From: Weissella confusa
GTDB lineage: Bacteria; Bacillota; Bacilli; Lactobacillales; Lactobacillaceae
Direction of reading: 5' to 3'
NCBI GenBank assembly: GCA_041871065.1
Contig: CP168942.1
Span: 2,078,501-2,142,500, forward strand
Length of the DNA stretch: 64,000 nt
The position numbers were made by a program, and so were the translations under genes. Shown here one piece after another: positions 21,017 through 31,426 of this stretch; within the stretch, counting starts at the first letter, position 1; each line of letters begins with the position of its first letter. The notes under the pieces were generated by a model, which had not been told where the DNA came from, did not search any database, and saw nothing but the letters and a program-made list of their open reading frames with translations.

Positions 21017-21235
21017 TTATCGTGCGAAATACATTTGAACGAGCACCGGGATGATTGTTATAACAATCATTTCAACCGCCAACATAATCCATATCTTTAT
21101 TAATAGCCTATCAATATGTTTGCTGATCATTTCGCCAATATTCTTTTTTAACTCAGCAAGTTCAGCATCCTTATTTAACCTGATTACCTCACGTTCCAAT
21201 CGCTCAAACTCCTGCTTCGTCACATATTGATCCAT
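21017..21235 (-). CDS. Small coiled-coil membrane protein, 72 aa
   Basis: Residues 1-38 form a charged helical, probably coiled-coil region (TKQEFERLEREVIRLNKDAE). Residues 46-68 form one membrane segment ending VLVQMYFAR. The layout resembles the phage XhlA/hemolysin-associated family, but no phage genes are nearby, so this is only a structural likeness. A GGGAGGTAACT ribosome site supports the start. It lies between the sortase terminator and pepO. The function is unknown. Confidence 0.55.
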   Translation of the reverse strand: MDQYVTKQEFERLEREVIRLNKDAELAELKKNIGEMISKHIDRLLIKIWIMLAVEMIVITIIPVLVQMYFAR

Positions 21236-21359: not shown

Positions 21360-22256
21360 CTACTTGCCAGCCAAGGCCATCTTGGCTTGCTTGATGCGGA
21401 TGATCTTACGAATCAAGACACCGATAATCGTGGCCACAACGACCATCAAACCAGCGAACCACAAGAACTCTGAACGTAACGTTCCTGATGGCAACGTATC
21501 ACCTGGTACTTGCTTACCAGTCACCAACAAACGGTGTGAGTTAACACCAACTGGCGTACAACTGACCAACGTCACCAAATTTTCCTTCGGGTTCAACTTA
21601 AAGGCATTTTGCATCTTGTCGGGCTTCATCACACGAATCTCGACAACCTTATACGTCATCGTCTTACTACCCAGTGCTTCGATGTAGAACTTGTCGCCCT
21701 TCTTCATCTTACCCAAGTCCGTGAACAACTTTGAGGTTGGCAAACCTGAGTGCGCCATGATGGCCGTGTGCAAGCCTTCCTTGTTGGCTTGTGGCAAAGA
21801 CGTACCTGGCACAATACCAGCACCCGTACGCAACACCTTTTCCTTCACGGAATTGTAGATTGGCAAACGCAGTCCACCGATTTCAGGAATCGACAAGACG
21901 CCCAATGGCTTACCAGCAATCTTCGTCAAAGAAGAGTTCTTTCCCGTCTCCAAATCCTTCTTTTGGTTCAGCTCAATCATCGCCTTCACCACATCCGGAT
22001 CCGTATTGCCATTTGTGCTTTGCGCCTTCTTCTTAATCTCTTCGTTACGCTTGTCAGCTTCAGCTTGCAACTTCGCCTTTTCATTGGCGTTCATTTGCGC
22101 AGCTGTTGAGCGATAGTTGTTAACAACACCTGATTGGTGAGTCGCTTCATACGCTTGCGTCACAATCGGGTATGAGAAGATGCTCAATCCCACAATAAAT
22201 AGAATCCAGGTAGACCAACTGGCCCCGGCCATAAACTTCTTTTTCTTCTTTGCCAT
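21360..22256 (-). CDS. srtC: Class C sortase, pilus-polymerising
   Basis: This 298-aa sortase has an N-terminal membrane segment (about residues 13-35), a coiled Lys/Gln-rich linker, the catalytic His near residue 169 (IMAHSGLP), Cys near 233 (TLVSCTPVG) and Arg near 242 (SHRLLVTG). A second membrane segment follows at 262-285. The C-terminal anchor and VNSHRL are class C features; these enzymes join pilins through isopeptide bonds. It is the last gene of the pilus cluster, 68 nt after the third pilin. No housekeeping sortase A is in this window. Confidence 0.93.
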   Translation of the reverse strand: MAKKKKKFMAGASWSTWILFIVGLSIFSYPIVTQAYEATHQSGVVNNYRSTAAQMNANEKAKLQAEADKRNEEIKKKAQSTNGNTDPDVVKAMIELNQKKDLETGKNSSLTKIAGKPLGVLSIPEIGGLRLPIYNSVKEKVLRTGAGIVPGTSLPQANKEGLHTAIMAHSGLPTSKLFTDLGKMKKGDKFYIEALGSKTMTYKVVEIRVMKPDKMQNAFKLNPKENLVTLVSCTPVGVNSHRLLVTGKQVPGDTLPSGTLRSEFLWFAGLMVVVATIIGVLIRKIIRIKQAKMALAGK

Positions 22257-22324
22257 TCTTTTCTCCCCCGAGTTAATAGCTAAATATGTACCCCGCCGAT
22301 CACCCGGCGAGCAAACTAATCAAA

Positions 22325-24904
22325 TTAGTCATTGTTTTGTGCACGACGCTTCTTAATCAAAGCAATCAAACCTGCTAATCCAAGCAACGTCAACAAACCA
22401 CCAAGGGCCGTTGCCGTGTATGGCAAGATTCCACCAGCGTGCGTTGGCGTATCATTGATTTGTGGCGTTACTGGTTGAGCTGGTTGCTCGCGGTAGTTAG
22501 CCACCGTGATATCATCAGCCGTTGCAGCACCGTTGATCTTACCCGATTGTGTGTTTGACAACGTGAAGTAGTGTGGCTCCGTCATCAACTTGTAGCCTGA
22601 TGGTGCTTCACGCTCAATCAATTGGTAATCACCGCCGGCCAAACCACAGTATTGCAAGTATCCGTCAGGACCTGAATAGTGAGTCGTAGCGTTGTCTTCA
22701 CGAACCGTCCACAAGATGTCTCCCATCGGATCAGATGCGTTTGAGTGCATTGAAGCCATCGGCTCACCAGTCTTCACATCTTCGTGCATGAAGTATACCC
22801 AGCGTGTCTTGCCGGCCTTCACATCATCACGCAGTTGTTGGACATCTTGTTCTGAGGCCGTACGCTTCATGTTAGGGAAACGCTTCGCCGTATACATTTC
22901 AGCGATGATTTCATCAATGTTATTTGATGTCACCTTAACACCCAAATCGAAGCCGGCGCCGGCCAAACCGTTGGTAATGTTACCATTGGCGTCAGTCTTG
23001 ACGTCGCCATCAGTCTTGATGATTTCCCATCCAGCCATGAACGTGTGCGTCTTATCGTCGTCTGATCCGCCGTCGTACTTCGTGTTGTAATCCAAATCAA
23101 TCTTGTTGACCAAGTGATCGGCTTGCAACGCCGTGTTACCAGCTGAGTTAATCTTCCAGCTCAAGTTCCATGAACCGTCATCAGCACCTTCGGCCAACAA
23201 CTTTTCGATCAAAGCGCCCATCGCTTGACGACCTGAAGCCGTCATATCCAACACGATTTCACCATTTTCAACTGGCTTCGTCCAGTCAACGACACGGGCT
23301 GGGTTAGCTGAATCACCTTGTCCAACGAATGTGTACGTACTCTCATGTCCGAACAAGTTGAATGCTGATGAATCAAAGCCATCGGCCAAGCCAGTTACCT
23401 TTGGTGCCGTTGCAGCATCGTAAGCAATCGTCTTACCGTTCAACGTTGAACCGTTTTGATCAGTCGTGAAGCCAAGACCTTGTCCCGTCACACCTTCGTC
23501 AATCAATGACTTGTCAGTTGCGTGGTTCACTGGGTACAAACCGTTGACCACTTGTGACAATGGCACTGACTTCTGCTCGCCATTTTGCGTGTACGTCAAT
23601 GCCAAATCCATTGACATCCAGTTCACTTGATATGGCATTTCATCAGTCAGCTTGTAGCTCGTGTAGTCGGCAATGTTCTTGTTCAATTCAGACGTGATAT
23701 CCCAAGTAAACTTTTGTCCACGAGCGATACCTTCCTTGTCATCACCAGTGCCCTTTTCATTGGCACCGAATGTTTGGTTATCAACCGTAATCGCCTTGTC
23801 GACTTGCAACTCATCGTAGTTGACCAACTTCGCAGCGTTCTCGCTATCTTGTTCAGCCGTTACGACCGTCACTTGTGGATCCGTCAAGTAACCCTTAGGG
23901 GCCATCAATTCGGCAATCACATATTGTTGTCCCTTTGAAATCGCGATACCCTTGTTCGCGTCAAAGACAACTTGTCCATTCTTATCAGTTGCTTCAATTG
24001 AGAATTGATCTGACGTCAAGCCCAATGCAGCAGCAACCAGTGCGTCAGCCTTCGTTGGTGTCTTTTCAATATCCTTAATCAATTGTGGCAACACTTCATT
24101 CAACTTGTCTTGTACTGAAGCTGGTGCAAGCAAAATTTGCGCACCGCCCAATACTTTCTTCGTTTCTGCATCAGTCTTCTTAATCGTTACGGAAGCCGTC
24201 TTGTATTGCTTTGTGTAAACGTGCAAAGGTGATTGTGTGTCATACCAGTAATCAGTCTTGGTTGCGTTTGACTTACCCACTGGCAAATCCAAGAAGATTG
24301 GCATCGCTTCATCTGTACCAGTGGCATCAGAGTCTTGCGTGATAACCCATTGTCCGTTTGGCAATGTTACCGTCGTTTCACCTTCGCCGTCAGTTGCCTT
24401 AGTTGTCTTAGTTGCCAAGCCAGCGTCCTTCACGGCCTTCACGAATTGATCGCGATCAACCACTTCGACGGTCTTGTCCAACACGTTCTTGTTACCCAAG
24501 TTAGTCGTTGCGACACCTGATGGTACATCAACAACCTTCAACAACTTTGACCAGTCAATGCCCTTAATCTTAGTCGTAGCAATCTTTGGAATACCGTCAG
24601 TTTGTGGGTATGTCACAACCCCAGCAGGCAGCTCGTAAGCCGTAAACGTTGCGCCAGTTGTCGTCTCCCAAGTCGTATCAGGATCGGCATCTTGCAACGT
24701 CTTCATATCCTTTTCTTCACCTGAACCCCACAACTCTGGTGCATTGCCTGGATCAGTATCACTCACATCTGTAATAGCGTGAATCACAACGCTTGTGTTC
24801 TTTGGCTCATTGTTGATGCCTGATTGTGCCAACGCATCCCCAGTCGTTAGCAAAATCGGTGCAATCAACGTCCCCATTAATAGTAATGAACGATGCTTTT
24901 TCAT
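22325..24904 (-). CDS. Pilin subunit 3, SpaA-like with LPYTA sorting motif
   Basis: This 859-aa secreted pilin has a signal peptide (residues 1-27, cut near ALAQ). A pilin-motif-like VYTKQYK lies near residue 240, followed by a CnaB domain with the E-box YVIAELMAPKGY. A middle isopeptide-type domain (YKLTDEMPYQVN) and a last CnaB domain with LIEREAPSGYK follow. The sorting signal ILPYTATALGG, a hydrophobic stretch and KKRRAQNND end the protein. It reads LPYTA, not LPxTG. The only cysteine lies in GYLQYCG. It has the smallest size of the three pilins and is adjacent to the sortase, so it could be the backbone; this is inference. Confidence 0.88.
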   Translation of the reverse strand: MKKHRSLLLMGTLIAPILLTTGDALAQSGINNEPKNTSVVIHAITDVSDTDPGNAPELWGSGEEKDMKTLQDADPDTTWETTTGATFTAYELPAGVVTYPQTDGIPKIATTKIKGIDWSKLLKVVDVPSGVATTNLGNKNVLDKTVEVVDRDQFVKAVKDAGLATKTTKATDGEGETTVTLPNGQWVITQDSDATGTDEAMPIFLDLPVGKSNATKTDYWYDTQSPLHVYTKQYKTASVTIKKTDAETKKVLGGAQILLAPASVQDKLNEVLPQLIKDIEKTPTKADALVAAALGLTSDQFSIEATDKNGQVVFDANKGIAISKGQQYVIAELMAPKGYLTDPQVTVVTAEQDSENAAKLVNYDELQVDKAITVDNQTFGANEKGTGDDKEGIARGQKFTWDITSELNKNIADYTSYKLTDEMPYQVNWMSMDLALTYTQNGEQKSVPLSQVVNGLYPVNHATDKSLIDEGVTGQGLGFTTDQNGSTLNGKTIAYDAATAPKVTGLADGFDSSAFNLFGHESTYTFVGQGDSANPARVVDWTKPVENGEIVLDMTASGRQAMGALIEKLLAEGADDGSWNLSWKINSAGNTALQADHLVNKIDLDYNTKYDGGSDDDKTHTFMAGWEIIKTDGDVKTDANGNITNGLAGAGFDLGVKVTSNNIDEIIAEMYTAKRFPNMKRTASEQDVQQLRDDVKAGKTRWVYFMHEDVKTGEPMASMHSNASDPMGDILWTVREDNATTHYSGPDGYLQYCGLAGGDYQLIEREAPSGYKLMTEPHYFTLSNTQSGKINGAATADDITVANYREQPAQPVTPQINDTPTHAGGILPYTATALGGLLTLLGLAGLIALIKKRRAQNND

Positions 24905-24941
24905 CCGCGTATCTCCTCAAAAATCATATCCTTATTTTTAG

Positions 24942-24963
24942 CTCATACTTGACCATGTATGAG
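24942..24963 (-). other. Hairpin in the leader of pilin 3
   Basis: CTCATAC/GTATGAG form a perfect 7-bp stem with an 8-nt loop, 38-59 nt upstream of the pilin 3 ATG and just 5' of its ribosome site. There is no T run, so it is not a terminator. It may affect translation or mRNA stability. Confidence 0.45.
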
Positions 24964-24988
24964 TTTTTCTTCACAGTAAAATTCTCAC

Positions 24989-25015
24989 AAAAAAAAAGGC
25001 GTTTCCGCCGTTTTT
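24989..25015 (-). terminator. Hairpin with oligo-T ahead of pilin 3
   Basis: On the minus strand AAAAAC-GGCG-GAAA-CGCC is followed by nine T. It ends about 85 nt before the pilin 3 start. The hairpins ahead of pilins 1 and 2 have the same placement, so it may be an attenuator inside the operon rather than a plain terminator. The gap 24905-25257 holds this, the next terminator and no gene. Confidence 0.75.
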
Positions 25016-25101
25016 GTGTTTCACTTTTCTATTTAATTTGTGCCTGAATTTTGTTATTCGTGGGCATTTTGTGAAGAGTGACATTTCAACACAGATAACC
25101 C

Positions 25102-25142
25102 AAAAACGGTAATCAAACCCCATTGGATTTGATCACCGTTTT
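25102..25142 (-). terminator. Terminator after pilin 2
   Basis: A 15-bp stem of AAAACGGTGATCAAA type (one G-U on the minus strand), followed by TTTTTG, lies about 115 nt past the pilin 2 stop codon. Confidence 0.8.
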
Positions 25143-25257
25143 CGTGTTTTTCAACATATCGTAAGAAAGATATCATCGCAAAGGCGGGATCAATCTCGTC
25201 TTTCTTATATGTCTTGTCACGTTTTCTGGAATGTATAACCTTATTCTAGCTTACAAA

Positions 25258-28200
25258 TTAAGCTTCGTTCTTCATATCCTTCTTACGCTTCAACAATGCA
25301 AGTCCCATTGCCAACAATCCAGCAATCACTGCGAACAACGTACCGATTCCACCAACAAGTGGGAAGATTGACTTCTCGTAGTTCTTGATTTGGACGTTAC
25401 CAACACCAATGTGTCCAGCAGAATCTGCATTTCCAGTAATCGCATCGTCAGATACTTGACCATTCAACAACTTGTACTCATCCTTAACGCCTTCGTATGC
25501 AGCCATATCTGCCTTGTAGTCGGCAAGCAATTGCTTCGCCTCTGAATTCTTTAACTCATACTTTGACTCAAGATCAGCAACAATAGCATCGTCACCGATA
25601 GAACCAAGTGATGTGATGTAATCGTATGCTGGGTTCATCAAGTAGAACTTAATTTGGTCGACAGTTTGGTACCCCTCAGGAGTCTTCGTTTCAGTCAAAG
25701 TGTAAGGTCCCGTTGCCAAACCGCAGTATTGGAAGTAACCCTTATCGTCCGTTACGTGAGTCGTTGCAAGAGCAGGGTATACCGTCCAAAGAACGTCTCC
25801 CATTTCCGTTGTCTTATCCATCTCGTCTACTGGCAAACCGTTCTCATCAAGGTGAGCGAAGTATACTGTTTGACCAGAGTGTAGTCCATCCGTTTGCTTT
25901 TGTAGGACGTTGTACATTGCAACTGCCAAATCATTTTGTGATGGGTTAGAATCAGCCAACAAAGTAGCCAAAGCGGCCTCTTGGTCATTGTTAGTTACTT
26001 GCCAAGTTCCGTTAGCCTCACCATATGCCTTCAAGTCTTCCGCCATTTGTGCCAAAACTGGAATTGCAGCTGGGTCAAGATCTGATGCTGAAGTAATCAC
26101 AGCGTCAGTTTGTGCACCACTAGCTAGCATGTGCGCAATTCCGCTGTATTGGTTCAAGAAACGATCGTATTGTGTGCTATCACCCTTAATATCAGCATCC
26201 GTCAATACACGAGAAAGGTCAAATCCTGCGCCCGCCAATGGTTGATCATCCCCATCAGTCTTTACGAATTCCCAACCAGCATCAAATGTCTTTGATGAGT
26301 CTTCTGGCTTGTCAGGAGTTCCGTTCACTGGCTTTGATGTCAATTGCGCGTCGTTGTTGATAGTACCAACGGTTGCTGATGAATTCAATTGTGCATTCAT
26401 AACAACACGCATTGCTGAATCCTCAGTAGACTTATCGTTTGCTAGACTACCAGATACAAGAGCCTCAGCAAGCTTGTTTCCTGACAAATCACCAGTTGTT
26501 GCATTTGGTGTCAATGTAATAGTAAACTCACCTGATTCAGGGTCTACAACAGCTCCACCGCCAGCTGGCATCGTGTATGTTGAAGGCTCACCAGAAACTG
26601 TGAAGAAGTCATCAACATCACCCCATGAAGCATCCCAACCTGAAGCAGCTTCAATCACTGGGTGATATCCCTTAGACGCGTCGTACGATCCACTAAATCC
26701 ACCGTCAGTGTCTTGACTTACCCAGTCGCCGGCACCGCCATTCGCCTTCGTATCCCAAACTTGCAACGTTACCTTAGCTAATGGAGTGAATGTCGTTCCA
26801 TTCCATGCACCCAACGTAAAGTCAGTGATATCGATTTGGTGATCAAATGTATCTGTTACTGAGTATTGTGAGTATCCACCAGCGGCAGCCAAATTTCCGT
26901 TTACTTCAGTATCAACTGAGTATTGGAAGGCCTCACCACGTGAAAGACCAACCTTGAAATCATTGTCATCAAAGACTGTGAAATCAGGCGCAGCACCATT
27001 TACATCAACTGGATTTTGAACGTTGATTTCCTTGTCAATTCCTGGCTTATCCCAGTTATCTACATTCAAAACACCGTTAACAAAGTATACCGTCTTGTCA
27101 TTTGCATTCGTATCAGTTGGATCAGTCATTTGCGTCTCAACAACGTGAACTGTGGCATCTTCTGAATAGCCACCCGCCTCTACATCATCTGAGAATGCAT
27201 TTGTTACATCTGATTCCATTACGATGTAAGTCTTGTTCGCCTCAACGTTGCTAAACTTAGCCTTTCCATCCTCACCAGTCGTTGCTTCTTGGACAGTAGT
27301 GATACCTGAGAACTGAGCCTTCAATGCCGCAATCAAATCAGCTGTGTTCAGCTTAATGCGTGCTTCATCCTTAACAAAGGCTTGAACTTGATCAGACGTC
27401 ACGCCAGTTGGAAGCTCGAACATAATAAATTCAGCATCTTCAACAGGCTTGTTCGTTTCACCGTCCACCTTTTCAACAGTCAAATCACCTGTTTCGGCGT
27501 AGTCCTTTGGATACAAGTTAACCGCCGTTGCTGACGAATTACCAAACCATCCACCGCTCTCCTTCATCATTGGCAAGTTCAATACCATAGGAACAGCGCT
27601 CGTCAATGACGTATCAGTTCCAGGGTGATCCGTTTCAAAAATAATCCACTCATTTGAACCAAGATTATCGAACGTCGCATCGCCATGCTCATCCGTTGTT
27701 TGTGTCTGTGTTTTCGCAGAATCAAGTGTACCATCCGCCTTAGTGGCAGCTGCTGCGAGAGCTGCTTGCACATCATCAATCAAACTACTCTTGTTCATGT
27801 CAAACACAATTGACCATGAACTAACAGTATCTTTCAAAGGCGTTGTGATATTTGACTTTTGGGGTGCATCTTCAGCGTTATTTACAGTGTCAAGCACATC
27901 TGCCCATGTAACGTTCGTTAGGGCTGTGATAACATCTGCACTCAACCGTGCCTTTTGGTCACCAGACAACGCATCAAGAATCTTTGTCGTTGAAATTGTT
28001 GGTTCATCGCCTAGACTAAATCCTGAGATCACATCACCAGGCAAAGCATACGCCGTAAATACGTAACCATCCTTAGCCTTTTCCCAACCTTCAGTATTTG
28101 GTGATACATCAAATGGGTTACCAGTAACTTCACCATTTCCCCAGTAGTAGTCATTCCCCTTGTCAGTTGCATTCAAGTACTTGTGTACAGTAACATCAGT

Positions 28201-28326
28201 CAACATCGTTGATGTCTTCCCTTGATCGTTAACAGCATCAGCAAGAGCATTCCCAATAGGTCCAGCCCCAAAAGCAATAGGTGCAACGATTGTTGAAATC
28301 AACAAAGCATTCTTCCATTTAGCCAT
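25258..28326 (-). CDS. Pilin subunit 2, SpaA-like with FPLVG sorting motif
   Basis: This 1022-aa pilin has signal peptide MAKWKNALLISTIVAPIAFG, almost the same as pilin 1. The pilin motif NLYPKDY lies near residue 275. A CnaB domain (DLTVEKVDGETNKP), a middle domain (YSQYSVTDTFDHQI) and a last CnaB domain (WEFVKTDGDDQPLAGAGFDL to YTLTETKTPEGY) follow. A tail of about 80 residues leads to SIFPLVGGIG, a hydrophobic stretch and KRKKDMKNEA. The sorting motif is FPLVG instead of LPxTG. Its only Cys is in GYFQYCG. Its large size would suit a tip or ancillary pilin. Confidence 0.87.
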   Translation of the reverse strand: MAKWKNALLISTIVAPIAFGAGPIGNALADAVNDQGKTSTMLTDVTVHKYLNATDKGNDYYWGNGEVTGNPFDVSPNTEGWEKAKDGYVFTAYALPGDVISGFSLGDEPTISTTKILDALSGDQKARLSADVITALTNVTWADVLDTVNNAEDAPQKSNITTPLKDTVSSWSIVFDMNKSSLIDDVQAALAAAATKADGTLDSAKTQTQTTDEHGDATFDNLGSNEWIIFETDHPGTDTSLTSAVPMVLNLPMMKESGGWFGNSSATAVNLYPKDYAETGDLTVEKVDGETNKPVEDAEFIMFELPTGVTSDQVQAFVKDEARIKLNTADLIAALKAQFSGITTVQEATTGEDGKAKFSNVEANKTYIVMESDVTNAFSDDVEAGGYSEDATVHVVETQMTDPTDTNANDKTVYFVNGVLNVDNWDKPGIDKEINVQNPVDVNGAAPDFTVFDDNDFKVGLSRGEAFQYSVDTEVNGNLAAAGGYSQYSVTDTFDHQIDITDFTLGAWNGTTFTPLAKVTLQVWDTKANGGAGDWVSQDTDGGFSGSYDASKGYHPVIEAASGWDASWGDVDDFFTVSGEPSTYTMPAGGGAVVDPESGEFTITLTPNATTGDLSGNKLAEALVSGSLANDKSTEDSAMRVVMNAQLNSSATVGTINNDAQLTSKPVNGTPDKPEDSSKTFDAGWEFVKTDGDDQPLAGAGFDLSRVLTDADIKGDSTQYDRFLNQYSGIAHMLASGAQTDAVITSASDLDPAAIPVLAQMAEDLKAYGEANGTWQVTNNDQEAALATLLADSNPSQNDLAVAMYNVLQKQTDGLHSGQTVYFAHLDENGLPVDEMDKTTEMGDVLWTVYPALATTHVTDDKGYFQYCGLATGPYTLTETKTPEGYQTVDQIKFYLMNPAYDYITSLGSIGDDAIVADLESKYELKNSEAKQLLADYKADMAAYEGVKDEYKLLNGQVSDDAITGNADSAGHIGVGNVQIKNYEKSIFPLVGGIGTLFAVIAGLLAMGLALLKRKKDMKNEA

Positions 28327-28406
28327 ATAGCATATCTCCTTAAAAATACAATCTACCCACTCGTGGCTCGATTTGTTTGTTTTTTCTTTACTCTATAATT
28401 GTGCCG

Positions 28407-28446
28407 AAAAAAAATACCCAAACTGCTATATGCACGTTTAGGTATT
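28407..28446 (-). terminator. Hairpin with oligo-T ahead of pilin 2
   Basis: AATACC.AAACGTGC/GCAGTTT.GGTATT on the minus strand is followed by eight T (28407-28414), about 85 nt before the pilin 2 ATG and 80 nt after the pilin 1 stop. It is closely similar in sequence to 31495-31532. Confidence 0.82.
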
Positions 28447-28525
28447 TTACATCTTATGTGTTTTATTACAGGTTTGTTACAGCTGTTTTTGAAAAAACTC
28501 TGAAATTGTGGATTTTTTTAGCGAC

Positions 28526-31426
28526 TTAGTTTTCGCGCATATCCGTCTTACGCTTGATGTATGAGGCGATCATTGCAATTGCTCCGATGAAGAACAAGCT
28601 CAACGCACCAACTCCACCAACAACTGGCAATACTGACTTCTTGTAGTTCTTGATTGAAGCCCAGTTATCTTCAGCCGTTGCATCTTCACCAACGCGGCCA
28701 GTGATTTGGTTATCAAATGGCATTTGTTGGTTATCACCAGCAGACGTTACCGTTGGGTACTCCTTGTTCTTAGCAGTACCATCAGCATTCACATAGAATG
28801 AATCGTTAGCACCAATTGTGAACTTCAAGTCATCCATTTGCTTGTAACCCTTAGGTGTGATTTCTTCGTGCAAGACGTAGTTACCATCGGCAACTCCACA
28901 GTATTGGAAGTAACCACGATCAACACCAGACAAGTGGGTCGTTGCCCAACGCTTATCCGTTACCCAGTAGATATCACCCATTTCCATGTGTGAATCCATG
29001 GCATCAACGATTGGTTGCTTGTTGCCACTTGCATCAGCTGCTGCCGTCAAGTGAATGAACCAAACAAATGTTTCTGATCCATCGGCAACCGCCTTACGAA
29101 GGACATCCGCTTGACCATCCAAGTAATTCGTTACTTGGGTAATCTTAGCAGCGTTGTTACCAGTGAATCCCATCTTGTCGGCCATGTGAATCTTGGTCTC
29201 ATCAGATACGACGTTTCCGTTGTTCTTGTTACCAATCAATTGAGAGATAACATTTTCAACGTTTTCCTTCGTTACCAAACGGCCCAAGTCAAATCCGGCA
29301 CCACTGACTGGGTTACCCTTCGAGTCAGTCTTTTGGAATTCCCAACCAACCGCGTTCGTTTGTGATTGGTCGTACATTGAACCTGATACGAACCCGTTAT
29401 CATACTTGAACGTAACGAAGTTGTTAATCATGTTCGTTTGAGGCGTTACACCTTCAGTAACATTCTTGTTTGTGCCACCAACGTTTGCTTGTGCAGCTGA
29501 GTTCGTTTGCGCGTTCATCTTAAATACGATACTTGATGAAACACCTTGCTCCGTCAATGCGCCGAACTTCGTCAAGTGAGAATAATCTTGCAAGAACTTC
29601 TCACTGAAGTCGATGTTCATCTCACCGTTCTTCAACTTTGTTGTGTCACCCTTGGCATCAAATTGAACAGCTTGGTTCTTGGCATCAAATGAGTATTGAC
29701 CGTTGAACCCGTACATGTGAATCAAGTTAGCTGAAATCCAAGCTGTTTGATCCTTCAATGATTGCTTGTATTCAGGATCCCCTTCAGCATAAACAGTTCC
29801 TGGATAGTTAAAGGCATCAGCTGCGTCTTGGTTGTAGAACTTAAATGAAACACCCGTTCCCTTATCAGTATCATAAGGCGTTGATGGTTGGTGCAATCCG
29901 TCTGTCGTTGAGTGGTCAGGTGTGTCACCGTCAGGGTCGACGGCTTGAATCAATGGCACAAGTCCTTCTTCTTCGCTACCCAAATCAACAACGCCACCTT
30001 CACCGAAGCGACCGTACATTGTCCAACTGTTGATGTTCACTTGGTATGGAATGTTATCCGTGATACCAAACTTTGTGTATGTGCCCAAATCGGCGTTCGT
30101 TTCAAGGTCAACCGTGTAGTTGTAGGCCTTACCACGAGAAACTCCAAAATCCGTATCGTTATCAACGAATGTTTGACTATAATCGGCATTCTTGTTGTCG
30201 TAGATTGGGTTACCTTCCTTGTCGTAACCGTTAACAATCAAATCAGTTACGGCTGCCGGCTTCAAGACATTGATGTCCTTGTCTAGGTCAGGTTCGTCAT
30301 AGTTGGCGAACTTGTAGACACCACCGTGACGGTAAACTGACGTGTCGTTCGCATCTGTTCCAACCGTCAAATCATCCTTATCATAACCATCGCTGGCTGG
30401 ATCAATGTTAACCTCTTGTAGCTTACCGTTGACCAAGTATCCCTTTGGCGCTTGCAACTCAAGCACAAAGTATTGGGCACCTGGCTTCAAGTTCGTGAAC
30501 TTGTAACCCTTGTCAGTCGTCACACCTGAATACAACAAGTCTACACCAGTTGCTTCATGCGCCTTGATCCATGCCAAGATGTCATCGCTTGACTTGCTCA
30601 ACAAACCAGCCTTAATTGCTGCTTCCAAGTCAGTCTTTCCTTGATCTGTCAAATCAAACAAACCAATCAAAGCACCGGCAACACCAGCCTTCTTTGTGTC
30701 TCCGTCTTCCTTAACAACAGTTAGGTCAGCCGTATCCGTGTAATTCTTTGGATACAAGTTCAATGGCGTTGATGTACCGAACCAGCCTTCCTCATCCAAC
30801 ATTGGTAAGCTCAAGACCATTGGTGCGGCACGCGTTTCTACATCTGGCTTCTTAGTATCTTCCAAGATAATCCAGTTACCATTCGTCAAATCGTTTGTTG
30901 TTTCACCATCTGCATTGGTCTTTCCAAAAGGAACTGTTGCGTACTTTGCATCTTCCATTGCGGCACGCAATTGATCTTCATTCATGTTAGCAGTTGCAGT
31001 GAACTCGATGGCATAATCCAACTTGTTAGATGAACCTTCCTTATAAGCCGTAATGTCAGCTCCAGGAGTTACCTTCAAAACTGAATTCCAAGCTACCTCA
31101 GTCCCAGGAATCTTATCCCCGGTAATAACCGGCTCACCATCCTTCAATGAGATAACTGACTTAGGAATGCTGAACGCCGTAAACTTAACATCAGCTTCTC
31201 CAACCCACTTATTCTCATCAAACCAGTTTGTTGCCTTACCATTTCCCCAGTACACGGCTTCTGAATCGCCGTTTGTTGTACCGTTACCCTGTTGCATCTT
31301 CTTGTGCAAAACCACCGTTGTACCTTCAGTACCTGGTCGATCTGCTTGCGCAAAGGCGTCACCCACACCAAACGCAATCGGCGCCACAATCGTACTAATT
31401 AAAGCAATATTTTTCCACTTCGCCAT
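28526..31426 (-). CDS. Pilin subunit 1, SpaA-like with LPVVG sorting motif
   Basis: This 966-aa pilin has signal peptide MAKWKNIALISTIVAPIAFG, pilin motif NLYPKNY near residue 222, and a CnaB domain with E-box YFVLELQAPKGYL. A middle isopeptide-type domain (FGITDNIPYQVN) and a last CnaB domain (WEFQKTDSKGNPVSGAGFDL to LHEEITPKGYK) follow. It ends KKSVLPVVGGVG, a hydrophobic segment and KRKTDMREN. The sorting motif LPVVG lacks the Thr of LPxTG. Its lone Cys is in GYFQYCG, as in both other pilins. It is the first pilin gene in the direction of transcription. Confidence 0.88.
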   Translation of the reverse strand: MAKWKNIALISTIVAPIAFGVGDAFAQADRPGTEGTTVVLHKKMQQGNGTTNGDSEAVYWGNGKATNWFDENKWVGEADVKFTAFSIPKSVISLKDGEPVITGDKIPGTEVAWNSVLKVTPGADITAYKEGSSNKLDYAIEFTATANMNEDQLRAAMEDAKYATVPFGKTNADGETTNDLTNGNWIILEDTKKPDVETRAAPMVLSLPMLDEEGWFGTSTPLNLYPKNYTDTADLTVVKEDGDTKKAGVAGALIGLFDLTDQGKTDLEAAIKAGLLSKSSDDILAWIKAHEATGVDLLYSGVTTDKGYKFTNLKPGAQYFVLELQAPKGYLVNGKLQEVNIDPASDGYDKDDLTVGTDANDTSVYRHGGVYKFANYDEPDLDKDINVLKPAAVTDLIVNGYDKEGNPIYDNKNADYSQTFVDNDTDFGVSRGKAYNYTVDLETNADLGTYTKFGITDNIPYQVNINSWTMYGRFGEGGVVDLGSEEEGLVPLIQAVDPDGDTPDHSTTDGLHQPSTPYDTDKGTGVSFKFYNQDAADAFNYPGTVYAEGDPEYKQSLKDQTAWISANLIHMYGFNGQYSFDAKNQAVQFDAKGDTTKLKNGEMNIDFSEKFLQDYSHLTKFGALTEQGVSSSIVFKMNAQTNSAAQANVGGTNKNVTEGVTPQTNMINNFVTFKYDNGFVSGSMYDQSQTNAVGWEFQKTDSKGNPVSGAGFDLGRLVTKENVENVISQLIGNKNNGNVVSDETKIHMADKMGFTGNNAAKITQVTNYLDGQADVLRKAVADGSETFVWFIHLTAAADASGNKQPIVDAMDSHMEMGDIYWVTDKRWATTHLSGVDRGYFQYCGVADGNYVLHEEITPKGYKQMDDLKFTIGANDSFYVNADGTAKNKEYPTVTSAGDNQQMPFDNQITGRVGEDATAEDNWASIKNYKKSVLPVVGGVGALSLFFIGAIAMIASYIKRKTDMREN

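Follow-up and report, generated by a model that had tools for sequence, protein, structure and literature searches.

How does a pilus assemble when none of its subunits ends in the canonical LPxTG sorting motif, and what does its sortase recognize instead? The question is raised by a locus of three pilin genes (A, B, and C) and one class C sortase gene (SrtC) in Weissella confusa, within a 64,000-nucleotide stretch (C1:2078501-2142500 of a 2.35 Mb genome; hereafter the window). At P1, the fourth residue of the motif and Thr in LPxTG, pilins A and B carry Val whereas pilin C carries Thr, and SrtC carries residues private to its lineage at positions aligned to P1 contacts. From these comparisons we consider it probable that the locus encodes a sortase-assembled W. 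confusa-group pilus whose sortase and substrates diverged together, with SrtC acting on xPxVG signals and a housekeeping sortase acting on a base pilin, C.

Sorting Signals of the Pilus Locus

A sequence-only reading of the window had described three adjacent pilin genes followed by one class C sortase gene, with pilin motifs, E-boxes, and CnaB domains, and the open reading frames agree with it in place, minus-strand orientation, and motifs. The gene order is pilin A, pilin B, pilin C, SrtC, as follows.

28526..31426, minus strand: pilin A, 966 aa; signal peptide-like start, GramPos_pilinD1, SpaA domains, LYPKN, two E-boxes, LPVVG
28613..28630, minus strand: LPVVGG of pilin A; P1 Val codon GTT
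25258..28326, minus strand: pilin B, 1022 aa; GramPos_pilinD1, SpaA domains, LYPKD, one E-box, FPLVG
25348..25365, minus strand: FPLVGG of pilin B; P1 Val codon GTT
25101..25144, minus strand: terminator-like hairpin in the B-C gap (consensus scan)
22325..24904, minus strand: pilin C, the proposed base pilin, 859 aa; SpaA domains, VYTKQ, two E-boxes, Pro-containing tail, LPYTA
22409..22426, minus strand: LPYTAT of pilin C; P1 Thr codon ACG
21360..22256, minus strand: SrtC, class C sortase, 298 aa; catalytic His169, Cys233, and Arg242 (from alignment)
21756..21758, minus strand: SrtC Met167 codon, two before the catalytic His; restricted, among the sequences compared, to the W. confusa type
21561..21563, minus strand: SrtC Ser232 codon, one before the catalytic Cys; Thr in 116/116 other listed class C sortases

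Pfam places SpaA (CnaB-like) domains in A, B, and C, GramPos_pilinD1 in A and B only, and Sortase in SrtC. Each pilin combines a pilin-motif Lys, at least one E-box (counted with our own pattern expression), and a sorting signal followed by a hydrophobic stretch and a basic tail; the VYTKQ motif of C is a variant. The reading was also right that no pilin carries a canonical LPxTG, pilin C differing from it at the last residue only (Ala for Gly). The NCBIfam model for the SpaH/EbpB family major pilin (NF033902, cut-off 95) scores C at 53.9 and gives no match to A or B. Records of the orthologues are named 'SpaA isopeptide-forming pilin-related protein', 'prealbumin-like fold domain-containing protein', and 'class C sortase'.

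The locus is larger than first noted, because two proteins ending in FPRVGG lie directly left of the window, at C1:2071-2078 kb, and the genome holds three more sortases. These two proteins, tip 1 (1218 aa) and tip 2 (1050 aa), each contain two SpaA stretches; 'tip' is a label of convenience, as tip 2 lacks a Y(P/A)K motif and tip 1 has a single IYAK. A genome-wide search with PF17802 (SpaA, E up to 0.001) returned ten domains in five proteins, namely A, B, C, tip 1, and tip 2, all within C1:2071-2109 kb, and P1 among them is Val in every one except C. The other readable sorting signals of the genome (LPATA, LPYTG, LPKTA, LPKTG, LPNTG, LPETA, LPNTG, and LPETG) have Leu at P4 and Thr at P1 in 8/8 cases. 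Many further matches to PF00746 or TIGR01167 lack a motif that could be read and are not counted among these eight; the two profiles miss pilin A and tip 2, and additional unusual signals may be unseen in the genome. We rejected the possibility that the motifs are simply random departures from LPxTG, as the P1 residue partitions by protein role. The suggestion that the motifs separate polymerized from wall-anchored subunits gains support from this division.

Recurrence in the W. confusa Group

A search of 28 Weissella genomes, the window's own included, recovered SrtC at 96–98% identity in four others (G005, G006, G007, and G010). SrtC and C recur in all five members of this W. confusa group, and A and B each in the four whose contigs extend far enough, that of G007 ending short of both genes; this recurrence argues that the arrangement is not due to chance. 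Tips 1 and 2 share a contig with SrtC in 5/5 genomes. At P1, Val is found in tip 1 (5/5), tip 2 (5/5), A (4/4), and B (4/4), that is, in 18/18 readable signals, while C has Thr in 5/5. In G006, an interruption breaks pilin A (L043:4116-7064), whose sorting motif is LPVVD; the frames of B, C, and SrtC are intact.

The same division holds in a larger protein set, where 54 pilin cluster matches were obtained and eight dropped before counting (seven truncated, one unrelated). A-type clusters read LPVVG in 19/20, with one disrupted (LPVGV), and B-type clusters FPLVG in 17/18, the last being FLLVG, in which Val is kept and P3 is changed. The earlier proposal that the sortase accepts a widened motif therefore seems less likely than a switched one, since 36 of the 38 W. 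confusa-type clusters carry one of just these two sequences. W. cibaria-type clusters read FPITG in 8/8; these take their species label from P0035, a truncated member, and one of them is recorded as Lactobacillaceae bacterium KNUT 0156. For base C, 20/21 clusters (P0175-P0195) have LPYTA, the remaining one giving no base motif; cluster P0196 was excluded from this count.

Private Residues of SrtC

SrtC scores 213.9 bits against the NCBIfam class C sortase model (NF033745; cut-off 160). We aligned SrtC with 120 listed proteins of 1082, comprising 116 relatives and four W. confusa-type clusters (one named W. confusa); the catalytic His169, Cys233, and Arg242 are present in 121/121. Twenty-six columns are at least 98% conserved in the 116 listed relatives, and the W. 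confusa-type sequences (the window and the four clusters) depart from them at position 232 alone: directly before Cys233 they have Ser, where every relative has Thr (TLxTC), a conserved feature of class C sortases and not a formal criterion. Two residues before His169, position 167 is Met, where the listed relatives have Ser (66), Thr (39), or Ala (11). Both Met167 and Ser232 occur in SrtC of all five W. confusa-group genomes, and 14/14 related Weissella sortases compared have Thr at both places. The sortase set is not biased toward Thr, because candidates entered it through words in common with the W. confusa query. A motif scan of 85 further class C loci, mostly named, gave 92 matches, of which 85 have Thr before Cys and four have Ser, all from W. 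confusa; the two with Asp and one with Gly lie in open reading frames of 532–1084 aa, too long for a sortase, and L058 gave no match.

In total, 9/256 compared columns are private to the W. confusa-type SrtC, and they include two of three positions that would line P1 (0.003, with the positions picked after the result was seen). These positions were assigned by offset from the catalytic residues of a class A enzyme, S. pyogenes sortase A (spySrtA). In spySrtA, the hydroxyl of T207, the residue before Cys, holds the P1 carbonyl, and a T207A mutant retains almost no activity; the methyl of the P1 Thr is directed toward V206 and toward A140, which lies two residues ahead of His142, and the P1 hydroxyl bonds the Cys amide (PMC9520033). 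The same work reports Thr before Cys in 363/400 class A sortases, and the sorting-signal Thr has been termed catalytically critical and tied to the oxyanion hole (PMC5640630).

SrtC itself shows no sign of decay: its dN/dS of 0.01–0.06 across the five genomes rules out a decaying sortase and indicates that the altered enzyme is kept under strong purifying selection. Class C sortases presumably carry an Asp-Pro-aromatic lid motif, and the lid region of SrtC, NTDPDVVKAM, contains none. A DPF lid is found in four non-Weissella sequences of 18 and is absent from four other non-Weissella ones and from the Weissella relatives. In S. aureus sortase A, we take A118 to be the residue two before His120. 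Evolved forms of that enzyme were also changed at the place two before the catalytic His, eSrtA(4S-9), which accepts LPE(A/C/S)G, carrying A118T among its nine changes and SrtA-beta carrying S118I (PMC9126251). Unlike SrtC, these are engineered class A enzymes that serve no pilus. An LMVGG-evolved sortase was also considered as a parallel for P1 Val and rejected, its P1 being Gly.

Origin of the P1 Difference

Other Weissella have related pili, with homologous pilins, tip 1, and SrtC (46–55% identical to that of W. confusa), but with Thr at P1. G008 combines an FPVTG pilin, an FPKTG tip 1, and a base-like LPKTA protein; G022 combines FPVTG, FPKTG, and a base-like LPKTG; and G021 has FPETG with a base-like LPITG ('base-like' being assigned from place and motif). 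G008 contains a second locus, in which the motifs are FPVTG and MPATG and the pilin frames are broken. The W. cibaria/W. fermenti-type pilins belong here too, the pairing of FPITG pilins with W. fermenti-type sortases standing on one link alone (P0028, P0059). The base kind thus has Thr both in the W. confusa group and in its relatives, and the P1 difference is confined to the other subunits. These comparisons narrow two earlier claims. An undescribed pilus type of Weissella is too wide a description, as the relatives have the same pilus with Thr, while the Val motif is seen in the W. confusa group only; and the supposedly unusual subunit size carries little weight beside related Weissella pilins of 903–1057 aa.

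To follow the change we used a pilin tree built without the last 40 residues, so that the sorting signals were removed; a first tree had no outgroup and could not decide the number of changes. In the tree used, the FPITG pilins group as sister to A (100/100), with B and the FPVTG pilins placed elsewhere; the Val/Thr distribution among pilins therefore needs at least two changes, and we rejected a single change behind Val in both A and B. The FPVTG pilins of G008 and G022 fall on the B side at a fork that is open (86/85), and one B row, P0032, lies nearer A. Two gains of Val would fit the tree, as would two losses or a single gain later reversed to Thr in the W. cibaria line; of these, two gains seem the likeliest to us, Thr being the general residue elsewhere. 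Tip 1, as a different protein, adds one further Thr/Val change. The P1 Val codon is GTT in A and B, and two substitutions separate Val codons (GTN) from those for Thr (ACN). When plasmids were searched with P0061, a sortase of the W. fermenti type, 166 records came back, all below 60% identity, with 40% the best among the matches listed. In G022 and G008, a class C sortase also stands beside a PepO gene without pilins (L047 and L048), the pilin operon lying elsewhere (L155 and L154).

A Proposed Assembly Pathway and Its Alternatives

Polymerization, the pairing of sortase with signal, the effect of Met167 and Ser232, and the roles of A, B, C, and the tips are what we infer from the genes described above. 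SrtC would cleave [LF]PxV-G between Val and Gly in A, B, and the tips encoded about 20 kb away, and would link the Val carboxyl released by cleavage to Lys within the YPK(N/D)Y motif of the next subunit, giving Val-Lys isopeptide links. Two residues, Met two positions ahead of the catalytic His and Ser immediately preceding the catalytic Cys, would adapt the SrtC pocket to Val. Pilin C, as the base, would be added last by SrtC through its own Lys, ending growth, and would then be tied to the wall through LPYTA by a housekeeping sortase serving LPxT(G/A). A or B may serve as the backbone, neither being singled out. Our guess is that the Val motif keeps shaft and tip subunits off the housekeeping sortase. 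The strongest form of the proposal is an orthogonal natural sortase-substrate pair, in which Val replaces Thr in every polymerized subunit, the P1-site and oxyanion-side changes match it, the Val-Lys bonds follow, the signals are invisible to the housekeeping sortase, and the base alone keeps a housekeeping motif; this we hold tentatively, as a possibility falling just short of an even chance.

The alternative that survives best, though we judge it unlikely, is that class C sortases are tolerant, that Val drifted into P1, and that SrtC cuts Thr and Val alike. Departures at P1 are indeed known in pilins, such as LPSSG of FctX and LPLAG of FctB in some S. pyogenes serotypes (PMC7900414). We surveyed P1 in the 85 further class C loci with a loose filter of our own, which returned 161 rows, some of them not sorting signals (NPMIA; the C-terminus of a sortase in L063): Thr 131, Ser 9, Val 7, Ala 6, Ile 5, Leu 2, and Gly 1. 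Six of the seven Val rows are from W. confusa, the remaining NPEVG (L071) being doubtful. In a dozen loci, as tolerance would predict, a sortase with the usual Thr before Cys is accompanied by one subunit whose P1 is Ser, Ala, or Leu. Yet drift should scatter, and Val instead occupies all four non-base subunits in every readable signal of the W. confusa group, and not the base. A tolerant enzyme also fits poorly with a change at the otherwise invariant residue adjoining the catalytic Cys and with the purifying selection on SrtC.

A less probable alternative concerns the base only: C could be attached to the wall via LPYTA by SrtC itself or by one of the sortases L002 and L004, and not by L003, which we take as the housekeeping sortase. 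The genome has four sortases, SrtC, L002, L003, and L004, and the last three pass none of the NCBIfam class cut-offs, which leaves their classes provisional. The unseen housekeeping sortase postulated from sequence has a candidate in L003. In S. pneumoniae, a class C sortase shares in anchoring (PMC3516528). Against this stands the occurrence of LPxTA in three proteins outside the pilus region (LPATA, LPKTA, and LPETA), which indicates that a sortase of wider duty probably handles LPxTA, presumably L003. W. ceti is described as having a housekeeping sortase with high similarity to its counterparts in W. cibaria, W. confusa, and others (PMC4687380). As to the remaining sortases, Ser precedes the catalytic Cys in L004 (C1:1700560-1700997; TIISCLFP) but not in L002 or L003. 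The gene adjoining L002 appears to us to be DUF916-like.

It is quite improbable that A and B stay unpolymerized, as separate adhesins of the wall or membrane, and that no pilus is made. In favor of this reading, the polymer is predicted from genes alone, the pilins are large, and W. confusa sortase pili are unreported among the open-access matches listed; against it, A and B have pilin-motif Lys residues, E-boxes, and pilinD1, and a class C sortase follows the three pilins.

Several points weigh against the favored coupling of SrtC to xPxVG signals. The whole case is one of sequence comparison. Val has a shape like that of Thr, and SrtC, or even SrtA, might accept both. The transfer of class A P1 contacts to a class C enzyme is a step by analogy, and Thr to Ser is a mild change, with Ser before Cys also present in L004 and exceptions to Thr among the class A sortases tabulated in PMC9520033. 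The change in SrtC is one event in one lineage, which places its coupling with the substrates beyond statistical testing. In L132 ([Eubacterium] cellulosolvens), a subunit encoded in a 626-codon frame has FPKLGG, with a hydrophobic Leu at P1, and the class C sortase near it keeps Thr before Cys (TLYTCTP). As noted above, the tree is also compatible with a single gain of Val that reverted to Thr in W. cibaria-line pilins, and the interruption in G006 means that pilin A is not required everywhere. Finally, the Pro tail of C is modest, with four Pro in the 25 residues before the sorting motif here and two in G005 and G007 (none in A or B).

Variation and Organization of the Locus

Among the five genomes, pairwise identity is 96–100% for SrtC, 97–99% for the adjoining PepO, 89–99% for C, and 85–98% for tip 2, compared with 66–75% for A (three genomes), 50–93% for tip 1 (four), and 39–64% for B (four). 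A, B, and tip 1 are thus hypervariable and SrtC and C conserved. Within A and B the termini are conserved and the middle varies; the N-termini of the two proteins are themselves alike (MAKWKN...). Synonymous divergence (dS) is 1.1–1.5 for B and 0.7–1.1 for A, against 0.2–0.5 for SrtC and C, implying that the A and B alleles are older or imported.

The intergenic gaps, in gene order, are 199, 353, and 68 bases. Because the B-C gap contains terminator-like hairpins (from a consensus scan and reading only), C and SrtC may form a separate, second transcription unit. An open frame of about 72 aa lies at window positions ~21017-21235 on the minus strand, in the interval that separates the SrtC terminator from PepO, with a membrane-like C-terminal part and a ribosome-binding-site-like start. 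Tip 2 is adjoined by a tyrosine-recombinase-like integrase gene (L042:3-653, plus strand; a 392-codon frame in L149; named by eye), and the integrase frame also stands beside tip 2 in G005 and G006 (L153 and L151); it may mark the boundary of a mobile element.

Relation to Known Pili and Implications

An operon of pilins with a class C sortase likewise characterizes the L. lactis pil and S. pyogenes FCT pili, and in both species a housekeeping sortase ties the base pilin to the wall, as we propose for C (PMC3516528, PMC7900414). The S. pyogenes SrtC substrates also depart from LPxTG, yet the backbone and tip departures VPPTG, QVPTG, EVPTG, and VVPTG keep P1 Thr where W. confusa has Val, and Ser or Ala at P1 is found there in single subunits (tip FctX and base FctB, respectively) and not, as for Val in W. 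confusa, in all four non-base subunits (PMC7900414). A further difference from these pili is that the W. confusa sortase has private residues at places aligned to P1 contacts.

Among the open-access matches listed, no title or abstract describes a W. confusa pilus, subscription papers being outside this scope, and the parts consulted of PMC4687380, PMC8203532, and PMC5817068 describe none. A survey of the Lactobacillus complex, with Weissella among its genera, predicted 67 pilus clusters in 51 strains (PMC4667430); the passages of it consulted name no Weissella cluster. Searched as whole words in the open-access literature, LPXVG, FPLVG, LPVVG, FPRVG, and xPxVG returned one unrelated tea paper only. 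On these comparisons, the kind of pilus is known; what counts as new is its switched P1 residue together with the corresponding changes in the sortase.

The variation of A and B recalls the diversity of tee, the S. pyogenes T-antigen gene, with 15 or more types (PMC7900414), and hypervariable A, B, and tip 1 beside a conserved SrtC and base suggest T-antigen-like pilus diversification in a lactic acid bacterium. If SrtC does work on Val, this natural enzyme would offer a direct test of how critical the P1 Thr is, would show how sortase specificity and several substrates evolve in concert, and would constitute a natural ligase orthogonal to LPxTG enzymes.

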